A DNA stretch of 5,900 bases, from NCBI GenBank assembly GCA_900767685.1, contig CAAGAB010000016.1:1-5900 (forward strand), in the 5' to 3' direction. Under the pieces are notes generated by a model. That model searched no databases and was not told where the DNA came from. It worked only from the letters and a program-made list of their open reading frames with translations. Below, piece after piece: positions 1 to 5,900 of the stretch; positions within the stretch are counted from its first letter, which is position 1; each line of letters begins with the position of its first letter. This DNA comes from an uncultured Coprococcus sp. Its GTDB lineage: Bacteria > Bacillota_A > Clostridia > Lachnospirales > Lachnospiraceae. Position numbers and translations under genes: made by a program.

Positions 1-349
1 AGGCCTAACCTTTGCGAAGTACAGCGATGGGATCTCTATGTTCTCACGCTCTATGTACTCCCATATATCAGCCTCAGTCCAGTTGGAAAGTGGGAATACT
101 CTGACCTCCTCGCCCTTCTGGATCTTGGTGTTGAACAGCTTCCACATCTCCGGTCTCTGGTTCTTTGGATCCCAGGCATGCTGAGCATTTCTGAATGAGA
201 GGATTCTCTCCTTCGCACGCGACTTCTCCTCGTCTCTGCGTCCGCCGCCAAATGCTGCTGTGAAACCGTATTTGTCAAGAGCCTGCTTGAGCGCCTGTGT
301 CTTCATGATATCTGTGTATGCTGAGCCGTGGTCAAATGGGTTGATGCCC
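1..349. repeat. Long direct repeat, left copy (internal cysD)
   Basis: Aligns gap-free with 5552-5900 at an offset of 5551 bases. Hand comparison gives 16 mismatches, about 95% identity: positions 100, 102, 103, 112, 136, 166, 175, 184, 186, 211, 220, 259, 265, 280, 292 and 298. The repeat reaches both window edges, so its true length is greater. Confidence 0.95.
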
Positions 350-636
350 TTCTTGACACCCTCCTCGTTGATGTACTCGATCATGTCAAGTCCGTATTTC
401 TTTGCAGTCCTGTCTCTGAACTCGATCATTTCCTTGAACTTCCATGTTGTATTTACATGCAAAAATGGAAATGGAGGTTTCTCAGGATAGAATGCCTTGA
501 GTGCCAGATGCAGCATTACTGAGCTGTCCTTTCCTATGGAATAAAGCATAACCGGCTTTTCACACTCCGCAGCAACTTTGCGGATGATGTATATCGCCTC
601 TGCCTACAGTTCGTCAAGATTTGATAACTTTCCCAT
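1..636 (-). pseudogene. cysD: Second cysD copy, broken by TAG at codon 11; 3' end outside window
   Basis: Sulfate adenylyltransferase subunit 2, the PP-loop ATP pyrophosphatase-fold catalytic subunit of ATP sulfurylase. Reading from ATG 636-634, the first ten residues are MGKLSNLDEL, then a TAG (604-606) falls where the family usually has Glu. The frame is otherwise open to position 1 (212 codons). It keeps the PP-loop motif SIGKDSS (residues 33-39), GINPF and HGSA just before residue 111, the [12 protein letters not shown] motif (133-144) and [12 protein letters not shown]. The next in-frame start is Met30 (547-549), just before the PP-loop; no ATG, GTG or TTG lies between the stop and it. 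Arg19-Lys20 replaces the Arg-Glu of the usual IIREVAAE stretch. Positions 1-349 match the cysD copy at 5552-5900 with 16 mismatches, only one of them changing an amino acid (Ala151 here, Ser there). It follows the phosphoesterase gene with no clear promoter or terminator between them. It is either a recent pseudogene, a product restarted at Met30, or a sequencing error at one base. Confidence 0.85.
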
Positions 637-647
637 GTTTATACCAA

Positions 648-654
648 CCTTTCT
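648..654 (-). promoter_or_regulatory. Ribosome binding site of the broken cysD copy
   Basis: On the minus strand AGAAAGG lies 11 bases upstream of the ATG at 636-634. It supports this start, and so the reading that TAG 604-606 is a real interruption early in the gene and not part of an upstream untranslated region. The spacing is slightly long. Confidence 0.5.
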
Positions 655-688
655 TCTTTATAGCCGCGCCGCCCCGGTAACGGAGGTA

Positions 689-718
689 GGGGGACGGAGG
701 TACCTGTCCCCTTTGGGG
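689..718. repeat. 30-bp dyad repeat, copy 1
   Basis: Begins GGGGGAC and ends GTCCCCTTTGGGG, with GGAGGTACCT between the two arms. GGGGAC pairs with GTCCCC as a six-base stem, and the centre contains the palindrome AGGTACCT, so either strand could fold. It matches the copy at 752-781 at 27 of 30 positions. The shape (GGGGAC, about ten bases, GTCCCC) resembles interspersed intergenic palindromes found in many Firmicutes genomes, some associated with REP-type tyrosine transposases. No such transposase lies in this window. CGGAGGTA also occurs just upstream at 681-688 and inside the element at 695-702. Confidence 0.75.
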
Positions 719-751
719 AAAACGCAAATTTTACTTCATTTTACCCTCTTT

Positions 752-781
752 GGGGGACGGCGGCACCTGTCCCCTTTGGAG
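752..781. repeat. 30-bp dyad repeat, copy 2
   Basis: Second copy of the element at 689-718, starting 63 bases further on. The arms GGGGAC and GTCCCC are intact and the core is GGCGGCACCT, differing from copy 1 by A to C (761), T to C (764) and G to A (780). Differences lie in the loop and tail while the stem is kept, which suggests the fold matters or that the element spreads as a unit. Confidence 0.75.
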
Positions 782-838
782 AAAAACGAATATGTAACGT
801 ACGCCATAAGGATCACCAAAACACCAAAACAATTCCCT

Positions 839-3472
839 TTAAATAGACTGCTCCTCTGTTTCGATTAACATTAAATCAAAATCTCTTAACACATGGCCAC
901 TAAATAATCTCTGCAAAGAATTAACTCTTCTCGATATTCCATACATCCCATCCGTACGACTTACACTCTGCTCTTTTCTTTTAAAGACTTCCACATTATC
1001 TGTATTCTTAGATTCTATCAAATAACTATTTGAATTTAAACGTAACAAGTAGTTCTTGTCCTTCGATTTCTCAGCATATTTCTTCTTCACATGCTCAATA
1101 TGTGCCTTCTCATCTTCTAACATTTCAATATATGGCAATTTCCATGGGGATTCTAATTTCATCGATAACTCTGTTTCCATAGATTTAATAACATCCACAA
1201 AAGAAACTAAGTTCAAAACCATGCCATACTTTGAAGAATAATAAAACGTCATACTGCCATCAACTGGATTCAACATAATATGATGATAATAATCTATATC
1301 CACGATACATCCATGTATTTCACCTGATAAGCCAAGATCCTTCAATTCCTTTGATAATTTTTCTTGCGCATTACGCAATGGCGTAAGGGCCTGCAAATAC
1401 CTAGATAATACAACATCAAAATTCTCGCAAATCCAGCCCATATCGGTTGAATTTGTTAACTTCTTAGTTGCTCCACCATTAACGATTGAAATGCCTTTTG
1501 ATGTCCCCTTTGGATTCATTATGAAAAATCCATAGTAACCTTTTCTTTTTATCACATTAAGGTTTGCTTTATCATTTTGGCATCTTTGATATAAAAGATT
1601 CCCCTTACCTACATCTTCGCCAATATATCTATAGAATTGTAAATAATCTTCAATTGTGGTCACATATAATCCATCTTGCATATCAGCGTATGGATTTAAC
1701 TCAATTCCAGTAGTTGCAATTCTAAATTCTATATTATTGTCCTTGTACCCTATCTGATTATCTGCATATAAAACTTTTTCTTCATTCTTCACATATTCGT
1801 TGCGATGATTATGTCCCGTAAAATAGATAGCTTCTTTGTCATACTTATTGTTCAAGCACGCAAATACAGGATAATGAGAAACACTTAAGAAACACATATT
1901 ATTTTTTTTTGCATAAGCTAAAGCCTTTTTATAGCCATTTTCAAATAACTCCGTCTCTCTTTTCTCATCTTCACGAGAAAAATTCGGACAGCAAACTAAA
2001 GTATCTGCATTATGTTCCCAATCATATTTTGCAAATCCAATACCACCATAAATCACAAATTTATCTTGTATATCGCATTCATTATGCAACAGTTTTATTC
2101 CTACTTTAGGCAACTCCGATTTATAATACGAAACACACGATGCAACATCTTCAAAACAGCAACATTCATGATTACCAAGCACAACATATACATTTTTTTC
2201 TTTATTTAGCAAAGCATGTCGATAGTCGGTCATATGAATTTCTTCAATAATTTTACCATGCAAATTTTCAAACGATTGCACATCCATCGAAAGAGCTCTA
2301 ACTGCTCTCTGATATGATTCTAGTTTTGTTTCACATTTTTGCTTATAACCACATAACTTAGCCATACCTTGAATCATTTCTTCAACATTCACCGGCAACA
2401 TAAGTTTCTTATATGATTTAGTCTTTTTGTAGCATTCAAACGTTGACTCATAATCCTTTCCTTCATAATATTTGTCGTGATACTTTTCAAATTTTTTAAA
2501 ATCGAAATACTTTAAAAGCATTTCCTTATTATGATTTATTCTAGAATTTAGCTTATCAAGCTTATTCTCTAATCTCGAATCATCCATCCTTTGAAGTATT
2601 CTTTTTACTTGTTTCATGCGCATAACACTGAGTTTAAATTTCAAAAACTCATCATAATCATATCTCTTCATGAATGCATCATAAAATTTCATCGTTAGTT
2701 TAGTATCGGAAGATGTATCACCGCCAAAAACTATAATCCGTGCTCCTCCCAATGATTCATACAGCTTAGAAACAATATCTTTTATCATTCGTTTTTCATT
2801 ATTGCCGTAATACTTCTTATGATGTCCCAAATGAATATCTGATATATACGCAATCTCAAGATAATCACTACTATTAGGTCGACCATAATATGTCAATGGG
2901 TCACTCAACTTTTCCACATTTGCTAATTGCTTGTCAAGCACTTGTAATGCTGTTGAATCAGCATTACATGAATATAGACTCATTGAATAGTCGATTGTCT
3001 GCTCACTAATTGTAGTCTTAAGGCATTCTGCGCCAATACAAGAACGCCATTCTACACAATTGAAACTGCTTTCATCCATCAAGAATGTCCGATTGCATAT
3101 TCCACACTTCACTCTATACAATTTCTTCTCTGCACAGGCTAATTCTAATTCAGGGAACGTATTTGGTTTCTTTTTATGATATAAAATTTTAGGATTCTTC
3201 TTCAATTCATAACCATACTCATCCTTCTCAACATATTTATCTATAAACGATTCTGGCATAGTCGCGTTATTATCATAAAGCTCTTCTTCGGTTTCGTTAA
3301 GTTGATAATATGACTTGAAATCACCTGAATAGCCCCACTTTATCCATTTCGAGAATCTTTTCCATTCTTTTTCAGCAATTTCTCTGGATATATCTTTAAT
3401 ATCATCAACCGTATCACTGCAACCACCAATCACTTCAAGGCAACCCGAAATGTCACCAACTTTTATACTCAT
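839..3472 (-). CDS. Large calcineurin-like metallophosphoesterase with Cys cluster and helical insert
   Basis: An 877-residue protein with the full metallophosphoesterase signature in order: DIH (212-214), GGD (250-252), GNHE (433-436), SHYP (532-535) and GHNH (553-556). These residues bind two metal ions in the family and hydrolyse phosphoesters; the substrate here is unknown. Spacing between GGD and GNHE is about 180 residues, far more than in compact members, and the insert is charged and probably helical (about 270-425). The N-terminal 150 residues hold KVGDISGCLEVIGG (4-17) and a Cys cluster (C123, C126, C139, C145, C150) that may bind zinc. The C-terminal 280 residues have no known catalytic motif but contain NGG (665-667) and IHGCIVDID...LNPVDG (719-739). 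No signal peptide or membrane segment is evident, so it is probably cytoplasmic. The start is supported by a near-complete Shine-Dalgarno sequence. The gene is AT-rich (17 G+C of 60 at 1681-1740, against 27 of 60 at 4081-4140 in cysN), which suggests horizontal transfer. I do not recognise the exact family; a defence nuclease or phosphodiesterase is only a guess. Confidence 0.88.
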   Translation of the reverse strand: MSIKVGDISGCLEVIGGCSDTVDDIKDISREIAEKEWKRFSKWIKWGYSGDFKSYYQLNETEEELYDNNATMPESFIDKYVEKDEYGYELKKNPKILYHKKKPNTFPELELACAEKKLYRVKCGICNRTFLMDESSFNCVEWRSCIGAECLKTTISEQTIDYSMSLYSCNADSTALQVLDKQLANVEKLSDPLTYYGRPNSSDYLEIAYISDIHLGHHKKYYGNNEKRMIKDIVSKLYESLGGARIIVFGGDTSSDTKLTMKFYDAFMKRYDYDEFLKFKLSVMRMKQVKRILQRMDDSRLENKLDKLNSRINHNKEMLLKYFDFKKFEKYHDKYYEGKDYESTFECYKKTKSYKKLMLPVNVEEMIQGMAKLCGYKQKCETKLESYQRAVRALSMDVQSFENLHGKIIEEIHMTDYRHALLNKEKNVYVVLGNHECCCFEDVASCVSYYKSELPKVGIKLLHNECDIQDKFVIYGGIGFAKYDWEHNADTLVCCPNFSREDEKRETELFENGYKKALAYAKKNNMCFLSVSHYPVFACLNNKYDKEAIYFTGHNHRNEYVKNEEKVLYADNQIGYKDNNIEFRIATTGIELNPYADMQDGLYVTTIEDYLQFYRYIGEDVGKGNLLYQRCQNDKANLNVIKRKGYYGFFIMNPKGTSKGISIVNGGATKKLTNSTDMGWICENFDVVLSRYLQALTPLRNAQEKLSKELKDLGLSGEIHGCIVDIDYYHHIMLNPVDGSMTFYYSSKYGMVLNLVSFVDVIKSMETELSMKLESPWKLPYIEMLEDEKAHIEHVKKKYAEKSKDKNYLLRLNSNSYLIESKNTDNVEVFKRKEQSVSRTDGMYGISRRVNSLQRLFSGHVLRDFDLMLIETEEQSI

Positions 3473-3477
3473 TTTAT

Positions 3478-3492
3478 CCTCACCACCTTTCT
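3478..3492 (-). promoter_or_regulatory. Extended Shine-Dalgarno sequence of the phosphoesterase
   Basis: On the minus strand AGAAAGGTGGTGAGG ends five bases before the ATG at 3472-3470. It matches the complement of the 16S rRNA 3' end (AGAAAGGAGGTGA) at 12 of 13 positions. It fixes the start of the 877-residue protein and predicts efficient initiation. Confidence 0.8.
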
Positions 3493-3503
3493 GTATTTAT
3501 TGT

Positions 3504-3531
3504 AATATATCAAAGTATTATCTTCAAACAA
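3504..3531 (-). promoter_or_regulatory. Possible sigma-A-type promoter for the phosphoesterase
   Basis: On the minus strand TTGTTT (3531-3526) is followed after 16 bases by TATATT (3509-3504). These match 4 of 6 and 5 of 6 positions of TTGACA and TATAAT. Transcription would start near 3497, giving a leader of about 25 bases that includes the ribosome binding site. The stretch is AT-rich, so chance matches are likely. The position between the cysN terminator and the phosphoesterase start is what a separate promoter would need. Confidence 0.4.
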
Positions 3532-3563
3532 TATATGCATGGTCTACTTTTCCTTGATGCCCC

Positions 3564-3599
3564 CTAAAAAACAAGAACGGAAAGGCATCTCTGCCTTCC
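3564..3599 (-). terminator. Rho-independent terminator after cysN
   Basis: On the minus strand the arm GGAAGGCA (3599-3592), loop GAGA (3591-3588) and arm TGCCTTTCC (3587-3579, one bulged base) form a hairpin. It is followed by a T-rich run, GTTCTTGTTTTTTAG (3578-3564). The plus-strand reading has no T-tract after the hairpin, so it acts in one direction. It lies about 50 bases after the cysN stop and separates the cysDN transcript from the phosphoesterase. Confidence 0.8.
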
Positions 3600-3645
3600 C
3601 ATCCCTGTTATACTAACTATATATTCTTTTTAAACACCCTATATC

Positions 3646-5286
3646 TTAGATATAATTTCCATCGTGAACCTGAGCCGCGTCGTATACAGACTCCTTGCGG
3701 ATCTCGTCTGCTATCTCGTCTGCGTCGATCTCGCCGTCAGCATTCCAGTCACCGCTGTAGACCTCGGCGCCTTCTACCTTGATTCCTGCGATCTGCTGCT
3801 CGCTTGCGAAGAGAAGCACGATGATTCCGGCATGATGAAGATGCTTTAATACAGCATTTACATCCTCGCGGATATCTGGAGCATACAGGTATGTATGACG
3901 TCCGTCGATGCAGAGTTTCTTCTCTACCGACTCAACGAAATCTCTTGAGACATTTCCTGCTGCAAATGGAACTATGACAGCTTTCTGCCCCTTGATTGCT
4001 GCACGCACATTTCTGTCCACGCGTCCCTCGTAAAGTCCGGTCTCCTCAGTGTGAACCTCCTCGACAACACCGCAGGCACTTGTCATGTCTGTGACACGGT
4101 CGATGAGTATGAGCTCTCCGAGAGTCTTATGTTTCTTGAACTCGTCTACCACGATCCTGTCGGCAAATGCGATCCTGCAGACTGCGATACCATTCTTGGA
4201 AAGGGTGTCCGCTGATTTCTGCTCGCCTGTATTTACATCTATGGTGTAATCAATGTGTGTAACTGTACCAGGAATCATCTTGGTTCCGAGCTTCACGAAG
4301 AAGTTCTTGCCATTATACAGCTCATCGTCATCCATCCAGAGAAGTGTTGCGGTGATCGAAGATGCAACCTTTGCGCCTGAATCAACTGTGAGCACACAGC
4401 CTCTTGACACATCAACCTCACGGTCAAGCTGTATTGTTACAGGCTGTCCTTTCTGTGCTGAGTCCACTGTGTCAAATCCCACATGGATGCTCTTGACCTT
4501 TGCGGTCTCGTTGCTTGGGAGTGTGTTGATCTCGTCTCCAACGTGGATCTCACCGTCCTCGATCTGCCCCTGAAAACCTCTGAATGTGTGGTCAGGACGG
4601 CACACTCTCTGAACAGGCATATAGAATCCTGCCTCTGTGTTATCCTCTGCGATATCTATATCCTCAAGGTATGTAAGGAGTGCGGGACCCTCATACCAAG
4701 GAATGTTCTCTGACTTCTTTGTCACATTGTCACCCTCTGTCGCTGACACTGGGATGATAGTGATATTTGGCAGGCTGAGCTCTGATGACAGCTCATTTAT
4801 CTGCTCAACTATCTCGTTGAAACGCTTCTCATCGTATCCGACAAGATCCATCTTATTTACTGCAAATACAAAGTATCTGATTCCCATTAGCGCGCAGATC
4901 CTTGCGTGTCTTCTGGTCTGCACTAGTACGCCCTGCTTTGCATCGATGAGGATGACTGCCAGATCGGCAAATGATGCGCCAACCGCCATGTTCCTTGTGT
5001 ACTCCTCATGGCCCGGTGTGTCCGCCACGATGAAGCTTCTCTTGTCTGTTGTAAAATATCTGTATGCAACGTCGATGGTGATACCCTGCTCACGCTCCGC
5101 CATCAGTCCGTCCAGAAGAAGTGAATAGTCAATGGCACCGCCACGGCTTCCTACCTTGGAATCAAGCTCCAGAGCCTTCTCCTGATCTGCATATAAAAGC
5201 TTTGAATCGTATAATATATGTCCTATAAGTGTTGACTTTCCGTCATCTACACTTCCGCATGTTATAAATTTAAGTAATCCGCTCAT
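3646..5286 (-). CDS. cysN: Sulfate adenylyltransferase subunit 1 (GTPase) with decayed APS kinase-like tail
   Basis: GTPase subunit of ATP sulfurylase; with CysD it makes APS and pyrophosphate from sulfate and ATP, coupled to GTP hydrolysis. The 546-residue protein shows all GTPase motifs: P-loop GSVDDGKST (11-19), REQGITID switch I (65-72), DTPGHEEYTRN (89-99) and NKMD (144-147). EF-Tu-like beta-barrel domains follow to about residue 430. Residues 436-497 look like a shortened APS kinase: SVEKKL, GRHTYL and HHAGIIVLLFAS recall the kinase's EKKL...GRHTYLLDGD...DAGLIV landmarks, but the P-loop GxxGxGKS is replaced by AAGNVSRD (442-449), so kinase activity is not expected. Residues 513-524 (DWNADGEIDADE) fit an EF-hand loop. 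A longer reading starts at 5376, but its extra 30 residues overlap cysD out of frame. The ATG at 5286 has a ribosome binding site and begins MSGLLKFITCGSVDDGK as expected. The cysD stop is one base upstream, so the two are probably translationally coupled. Confidence 0.95.
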   Translation of the reverse strand: MSGLLKFITCGSVDDGKSTLIGHILYDSKLLYADQEKALELDSKVGSRGGAIDYSLLLDGLMAEREQGITIDVAYRYFTTDKRSFIVADTPGHEEYTRNMAVGASFADLAVILIDAKQGVLVQTRRHARICALMGIRYFVFAVNKMDLVGYDEKRFNEIVEQINELSSELSLPNITIIPVSATEGDNVTKKSENIPWYEGPALLTYLEDIDIAEDNTEAGFYMPVQRVCRPDHTFRGFQGQIEDGEIHVGDEINTLPSNETAKVKSIHVGFDTVDSAQKGQPVTIQLDREVDVSRGCVLTVDSGAKVASSITATLLWMDDDELYNGKNFFVKLGTKMIPGTVTHIDYTIDVNTGEQKSADTLSKNGIAVCRIAFADRIVVDEFKKHKTLGELILIDRVTDMTSACGVVEEVHTEETGLYEGRVDRNVRAAIKGQKAVIVPFAAGNVSRDFVESVEKKLCIDGRHTYLYAPDIREDVNAVLKHLHHAGIIVLLFASEQQIAGIKVEGAEVYSGDWNADGEIDADEIADEIRKESVYDAAQVHDGNYI

Positions 5287-5287
5287 C

Positions 5288-5900
5288 TTAGAAGTATCCC
5301 TCCCTCTTTCTACGCTCCATGCTGCCTGCTGCCTCGTTGTCAATAACTCTGGTGGTTCTCTCTGAGGATACCGCACTGAGCGTCTCCTCGATAATCTCAG
5401 GGAGTGTGTCCGCTTTGGACTCCACGCCGCCTGTCAGTGGATAGCATCCGAGAGTTCTGAAACGAACACTCTTGTACTCTATCTTCTCACCAGGTCTGAG
5501 TTTCATTCTGTCATCATCGACCATGATGATATTTCCGTCACGGTATACAACAGGCCTAACCTTTGCGAAGTACAGCGATGGGATCTCTATGTTCTCACGC
5601 TCTATGTACTCCCATATATCAGCCTCAGTCCAGTTGGAAAGTGGGAATACACGAACCTCCTCACCCTTCTGGATCTTGGTGTTGAAGAGCTTCCACATCT
5701 CCGGTCTCTGGTTCTTCGGATCCCATGCATGCTGTGAATTTCTGAATGAGAGGATTCTCTCTTTCGCACGGGACTTCTCCTCGTCTCTGCGTCCGCCGCC
5801 AAATGCTGCAGTGAAGCCGTATTTGTCAAGCGCCTGCTTGAGTGCCTGCGTCTTCATGATATCTGTGTATGCTGAGCCGTGGTCAAATGGGTTGATGCCC
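5288..5900 (-). CDS. cysD: Sulfate adenylyltransferase subunit 2, 5' end outside window
   Basis: C-terminal part of the ATP-transferring subunit of ATP sulfurylase, partner of the CysN encoded immediately after it. The frame is open to the window edge. The visible part begins around GINPF...HGSA (before residue 111, numbering by the other copy) and includes [16 protein letters not shown] (130-145), [42 protein letters not shown] (243-257) and the typical C-terminal [12 protein letters not shown]. With the N terminus of the other copy, the full length would be 299 residues, close to E. coli CysD. A Met at 5857 is internal, not the start. The TAA (5290-5288) is one base from the cysN ATG. The PP-loop region and promoter lie outside the window, so I cannot tell whether this copy is intact at its 5' end, though its pairing with cysN makes it the likely working copy. 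Confidence 0.93.
5298..5306 (-). promoter_or_regulatory. Ribosome binding site of cysN inside the cysD 3' end
   Basis: On the minus strand GAGGGAGGG lies 11 bases before the ATG at 5286-5284, within the last codons of cysD. It decides the cysN start against the longer reading from 5376 and fits coupling of the two subunits' translation. Confidence 0.6.
5552..5900. repeat. Long direct repeat, right copy (internal cysD)
   Basis: Partner of the repeat at 1-349, same orientation. Together they bracket most of cysN-cysD and the whole phosphoesterase gene. Homologous recombination between them would delete a 5551-bp segment as a circle. Confidence 0.95.

Follow-up and report, generated by a model that had tools for sequence, protein, structure and literature searches.

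A lone, mobile metallophosphoesterase gene, possibly acting on nucleic acid, in a sulfur assimilation locus of an uncultured Coprococcus

We analyzed a stretch of 5,900 nucleotides (the window) from an uncultured Coprococcus sp. of the Lachnospiraceae (GCA_900767685.1, contig CAAGAB010000016.1, positions 1 to 5,900), in which a single large metallophosphoesterase gene lies between cysN and one of two copies of cysD. According to the open reading frame (ORF) list, Pfam, and a motif check, the gene (839..3472, on the reverse strand, as are all genes and protein regions located below) is intact, starts with ATG, and encodes 877 amino acids. The initial annotation had described an AT-rich gene whose product has a complete calcineurin-like active site between two long unassigned flanks, and all three observations held. 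The GC content is 32.8% in the gene versus 48.1% in the remaining window. The protein carries the metal motifs D212/H214 (SDIHL), D252 (GGD), N434/H435 (GNHE), H533 (SHYP), and H554/H556 (GHNH), all five of which are invariant in alignment A1 (38 rows, the window protein and 37 homologues; A1 numbering is offset by −1, as Met1 is missing from its first row). These motifs, together with the fold, place the protein among the calcineurin-like metallophosphoesterases. Pfam Metallophos (E 1.1e-4) was the sole match above the cut-off, with two other weak matches below it, leaving approximately 200 N-terminal and 290 C-terminal residues unmatched. NCBIfam and PADLOC v2.0.0 gave no match to the protein (E ≤ 1 for PADLOC) and PHROGs only weak ones, so that none of these four libraries links it to a characterized housekeeping phosphatase family.

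The metallophosphoesterase core with its five motifs spans residues 204–590 (1703..2863). Alignment A1 and the structural model place a helical insertion between motifs II and III (residues ∼272–421, 2210..2659), which splits the phosphoesterase domain and is missing in some relatives (P0036, P0064, and P0107). The core is followed by a conserved C-terminal domain (residues 591–790, 1103..1702) with the motifs YxIK...GYYGFF and IHGCIVDID and a weakly SH2-like fold. Assignment of this domain to a known fold was rejected (best Foldseek match in the PDB, E 0.3), and SH2 was neither among the 18 Pfam families listed for 31 pieces at E ≤ 10 nor among three PDB sequence matches. Its invariant Lys-642 presumably lies near the position of the SH2 phosphate-binding arginine. 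A C-terminal helical motif, RLFSGHVLRDFD (842..955; alignment A1, motif check), comes next, and the tail that follows it in many relatives is absent from the window protein. At the other end, residues 1–200 (2873..3472) form an alpha/beta region with a conserved cysteine cluster (alignment A1, model), which probably binds metal. The cluster includes a probable zinc finger (residues ∼115–155, 3008..3130, VKCxIC...SCxGAEC) that is conserved in the window's clade; its pattern occurred in 61 of 67 N-termini, which had been preselected for length and CxxC. A whole-protein profile retrieved three unrelated matches from the PDB sequences (E 0.1–0.3), and the 12 matches among viral structures (E ≤ 0.001), calcineurin-like or unnamed, were uninformative beyond the superfamily.

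Across the family, the phosphoesterase core is constant, N-termini differ by class, and tails vary among relatives; the GNHE and IHGxIVD motifs occur together in 195 of 222 collected proteins. DUF4379 scored above the cut-off in all four scanned relatives with a precomputed DUF4379 label, and an unnamed repeat was found in 10 of 96 tails. A search with one repeat-bearing tail returned 15 proteins, of which five had no phosphoesterase label (P0213, P0214, P0215, P0216, and P0222), indicating that such modules are shared with other proteins. Four of the five contain an IEYDGxxWH-like motif; P0214 lacks the pattern used. Separately, we noticed that P0213–P0216 have four to eight unnamed repeat modules, arranged around this motif except in P0214, that apparently form an unannotated repeat family. 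A short ORF directly after the gene in another locus (L038:16147-16608), near a contig end, has CapR/DUF4379 zinc fingers and could be a detached module. Two further candidate modules were rejected: the tail of the window's clade as the unnamed repeat (an hhalign probability of 18.8% and a suggestive pairwise E of 0.0012, with hmmsearch scores like those of shuffles) and a NUMOD in L044 (below the cut-off, E 2.6e-4).

We collected 402 homologues, the closest 96% identical. True members, defined as more than a short match to generic phosphoesterase motifs, were present in 17 of 397 sampled genomes from the family to which L001 belongs and in 7 of 391 from its class (our own count, with genomes G001 and G262 counted in both samples). 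The 17 include three short fragments (G005, G292, and G200), and short, motif-region matches were set aside in 5 of 22 matched genomes of the family sample and 16 of 23 of the class sample. Attempts at larger samples gave further pieces of known members from a same-family draw and only 4 and 11 genomes from two others. One copy, in L037 (G222), has decayed: it is split over two frames, and the match contains stops. The family is sporadic but occurs widely across Clostridia genomes and among metagenome proteins, and in the libraries tried it is unnamed beyond the phosphoesterase label; no paper on it was among the matches listed in one open-licence library. This patchy occurrence at changing sites is not that of a vertically inherited core gene, the outcome that would have spoken against the initial annotation.

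Several lines of evidence support the conclusion that the gene is mobile cargo. In 22 of 23 loci, the gene had a lower GC content than the flanking DNA (means 33.7 versus 44.6%, Wilcoxon P 7e-7), and its sites were mostly unrelated from locus to locus. In a comparison of 22 loci and the window, the genes of L040, L041, and L042 were 68–76% identical and had no flanking gene in common. Between L047 and L101, which search groups assign to different families, the gene is 76% identical and GuaA 62%, therefore supporting transfer across families. With gene names assigned by eye, the gene lies directly after guaA in L101 and, in L047, downstream of guaA among integrase-like and mobilization-like genes. 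A pattern-limited scan of 2.9 million IMG/VR contigs matched four loci. Judged by eye, the gene adjoins an integrase-like ORF and tail-like genes in L003 (its N-terminus cut by the contig end), follows recT/yqaJ-like genes in L004, and has replication-like genes on one side and an endolysin-like gene on the other in L005; L006 is a bacterial stretch that recurs as L100 in a 4.8-Mb bacterial contig. Of three further viral scans, two were empty and one recovered the L003 contig again, and tblastn found no match in 50,697 phage and 72,556 plasmid records. A RarA-like ATPase gene (named by eye) was also seen near the gene in L038 and L099, the two copies being 43% identical, which may be chance.

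The neighborhood survey that the initial annotation had called for gave a suggestive enrichment of defense genes. Among the matches listed, strong PADLOC neighbors lay within 5 kb in 4 of 20 genome loci: AbiD and a GajB-like helicase in L037; PDC-M33A/B, with a type II enzyme at 2e-24, in L039; JetB/C/D (Wadjet), assigned by gene order, in L044; and PDC-M33A/B/C with a type IV enzyme in L046. The candidate defense system PDC-M33 is the one multigene neighbor set common to two loci, the other common neighbors being single genes of common families; its components A and B are 27 and 22% identical between L039 and L046, and both loci have DUF6339 as the third gene. In addition, a Schlafen/AlbA_2 protein lies near the gene in L006, and five further loci (35 neighbors) had weaker matches only (best, PDC-S50 at 1.4e-22). 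At E ≤ 1e-40, at least 10 of 137 neighbor proteins matched versus 2 or 3 of 135 controls (AbiO, Nhi, and GlgB), with P values of 0.03 and 0.08 (our own count) that treat proteins of one operon as independent, which they are not; the families behind these counts are the best 25 of 150 for neighbors and the best 25 of 46 for controls. At the laxer 1e-20, PDC-S50 appeared near one further locus, and mad3, mad2, and E1-E2 were added among the controls. The neighbor set came from 154 listed ORFs, of which 17 judged spurious were dropped, and covered three viral-collection loci, without L004 and the fragment locus L050 and with L100 repeating L006; the control set was 135 ORFs of 202. Counted by locus, the comparison was 4 of 20 genome loci versus 1 of 18 control regions among the matches listed (Fisher P 0.34), and the control count could be 2, since the strong matches among the controls were not traced to individual proteins. 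On visual inspection, no defense or mobile neighbor was recognized around the gene in 14 of these 20 genome loci. Of the proposed defense or mobile-element character, then, mobility is supported, but the defense enrichment is not significant by locus.

Elsewhere in the window, the cysN gene (sulfate adenylyltransferase large subunit; ORF list, Pfam) is listed as 3646..5376, with its true start probably near 5283. Copy A of cysD (5288..5900; ORF list, Pfam, and copy comparison) has its N-terminal end outside the window; copy B (1..636) has its C-terminal end outside and an in-frame stop at codon 11. The copies are identical at 333 of 349 bases; of the 16 mismatches, 14 are in third codon positions, and translation of the overlap gives a single residue change in 116. 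Because two cysD copies flank the locus, the metallophosphoesterase gene sits between direct repeats, a duplication that was missed when the gene was described as lone cargo in a sulfur locus. The doubling may reflect tandem duplication, single-crossover integration, or an assembly join. In 10 loci (4.5–4.6 kb each) holding the best CysN matches in the 397 genomes, cysD-cysN was single and had no metallophosphoesterase gene downstream. A 34-nucleotide palindrome, GGGGACGG...ACCTGTCCCC, was also seen in two copies (689-722 and 752-785, 91% alike) in the spacer separating the gene from cysD copy B; from its appearance, we take it to be REP-like.

Expression independent of cysN, as initially proposed, is likely, judging from signals read in the DNA. 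On the strand of the gene, a terminator-like hairpin followed by T (3570..3609, −27 kcal/mol, z −6.1) separates it from cysN, and a ribosome-binding site, AAAGGTGGTGAGG (3478..3490), precedes it, with AAGGTGGTGAGG readable as a ribosome site upstream of the gene. Against this, the hairpin is absent from the list of the consensus scan, whose one terminator-like site lies elsewhere, and the promoter-like TTGAAG-17-TACAAT of that scan (3499..3527, same strand) belongs to a set of boxes not above chance in the window (16 found versus 14.7 expected). Rfam had no match in the window.

Known systems offer partial parallels. The DefensePredictor report (PMC13092281) describes DS-8 and DS-9 as validated metallophosphatase defense systems of unknown substrate. 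Both share the metallophosphatase core with the window protein, and DS-8 is likewise one protein; as described there, however, DS-8 contains a NACHT nucleoside triphosphatase (NTPase), whereas a Pfam scan (E ≤ 1) found no NTPase domain in the window protein, and DS-9 adjoins a HAD phosphatase, whereas the window neighbors are cysN and the cysD copies. The family also differs from both, as far as these descriptions go, in its exchanged modules and its conserved C-terminal (IHG) domain. EDxHD/Vsr-like homing endonucleases carry distant relatives of the CapR, DUF4379, and DUF723 domains, according to a 2025 report (PMC12350094); DUF4379 in the window protein's relatives and the lone mobile gene recall them, but the core here is a metallophosphoesterase and close relatives occupy unrelated sites. 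SbcD/Mre11 nucleases differ in their C-terminal domain, and no SbcC/Rad50-like gene lies in the window. The phosphopantetheinyl hydrolase PptH (6unc) is a chain of 278 residues without the extra regions of the window protein.

We tentatively favor, at slightly less than even confidence, a mobile, modular, free-standing phosphoesterase whose most likely substrate is nucleic acid, with either a defensive or a selfish role. The two-metal calcineurin-like core and the one conserved C-terminal domain after it are the constant part, and target choice would be left to the exchangeable N-termini and tails. For the window protein, this would give the N-terminal cysteine-cluster region the role of aiming and the core that of cleaving phosphodiester bonds. 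The gene moves alone or within phage-like and integrative elements to unrelated sites, and it would serve mainly to interfere with incoming DNA or, alternatively, to spread itself selfishly. Nuclease activity, DNA as the target, and a defense role are what this proposal would predict; the defense idea is plausible because DS-8 and DS-9 have already been validated, as PMC13092281 states. Several observations weigh against it. The best fold match is PptH, by its title a hydrolase of another substrate. Recognized modules occur in a minority of relatives only, and the window protein has neither a recognized DNA-binding domain nor a tail. Its N-terminal finger was rejected as a homing (AP2-type) zinc ribbon (hmmsearch E 8, hhalign probability 0.1–0.2%; the best relative, P0060, reached E 0.0077 with hmmsearch). 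Neither the precomputed Pfam labels of the five module-sharing proteins, which name no nuclease, nor searches of PDB sequences with two of the five, which found none, confirmed that the presumably Vsr-like IEYDGxxWH-like motif seen in four of the five belongs to a nuclease domain. The by-locus comparison of defense neighbors counts on the same side. A bolder version is unlikely: a new mobile nuclease class in which the metallophosphoesterase core and its own, perhaps SH2-like, C-terminal domain replace the nuclease of homing-type modular proteins. Such a nuclease would share the DNA-binding parts of those proteins, would be transferred as one gene, and would be retained by hosts for the protection that it alone gives against phages or other mobile DNA.

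Rather less probable than not is a single-gene anti-phage effector that is no DNA nuclease, in which the N-terminus would sense infection and the core would destroy a nucleotide, signal, or RNA in abortive infection. A fixed core with exchanged N-termini, carriage by phage-like or integrative elements (L003, L004, L005, and L047), the Wadjet, PDC-M33, AbiD, and Schlafen/AlbA_2 neighbors, and the validated systems of PMC13092281 fit such an effector; the nonsignificant locus comparison and the lack of a NACHT or HAD partner in the window Pfam scan do not, and the DUF4379 and zinc-ribbon modules fused in relatives point to nucleic acid. It is quite unlikely that the gene is a selfish, free-standing homing type that cuts alleles lacking it and enters them through repair. 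It is indeed a lone mobile gene between unrelated genes, a minority of its relatives have modules in common with homing-type proteins, and free-standing homing genes occupy positions between conserved genes according to PMC6083498. However, only Metallophos, and no known homing catalytic domain, scored above the Pfam cut-off, the core is outside the six catalytic families and the Endo VII type given in PMC6083498, and the close relatives L040, L041, and L042 share no insertion site. We consider a recently acquired, ordinary metabolic or regulatory phosphatase very unlikely, given the patchy occurrence (17 of 397) at changing sites, the absence of a characterized family match, and the absence of cysN or cysD matches among 223 neighbors of 22 other loci of the gene. 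More improbable still is a phage accessory or counter-defense gene stranded in chromosomes: the three phage-like contigs recognized by eye (L003, L004, and L005) speak for it, but the gene is rare in viruses, with four loci in the IMG/VR scan and none in the phage and plasmid records, and one of the four, L006, is also a stretch of a bacterial contig.

Metallophosphatase-based defense is already known, as PMC13092281 reports, and the newer element here is the module exchange with homing-type proteins. Single-residue tests are defined under either reading. If the favored phosphoesterase cuts DNA, it would add a new catalytic core to the homing-type list and would link selfish nucleases to one-gene defense; if it hydrolyzes nucleotides instead, the family would belong with the metallophosphatases of the DS-8 and DS-9 kind, which have a validated defense function but an unknown substrate.
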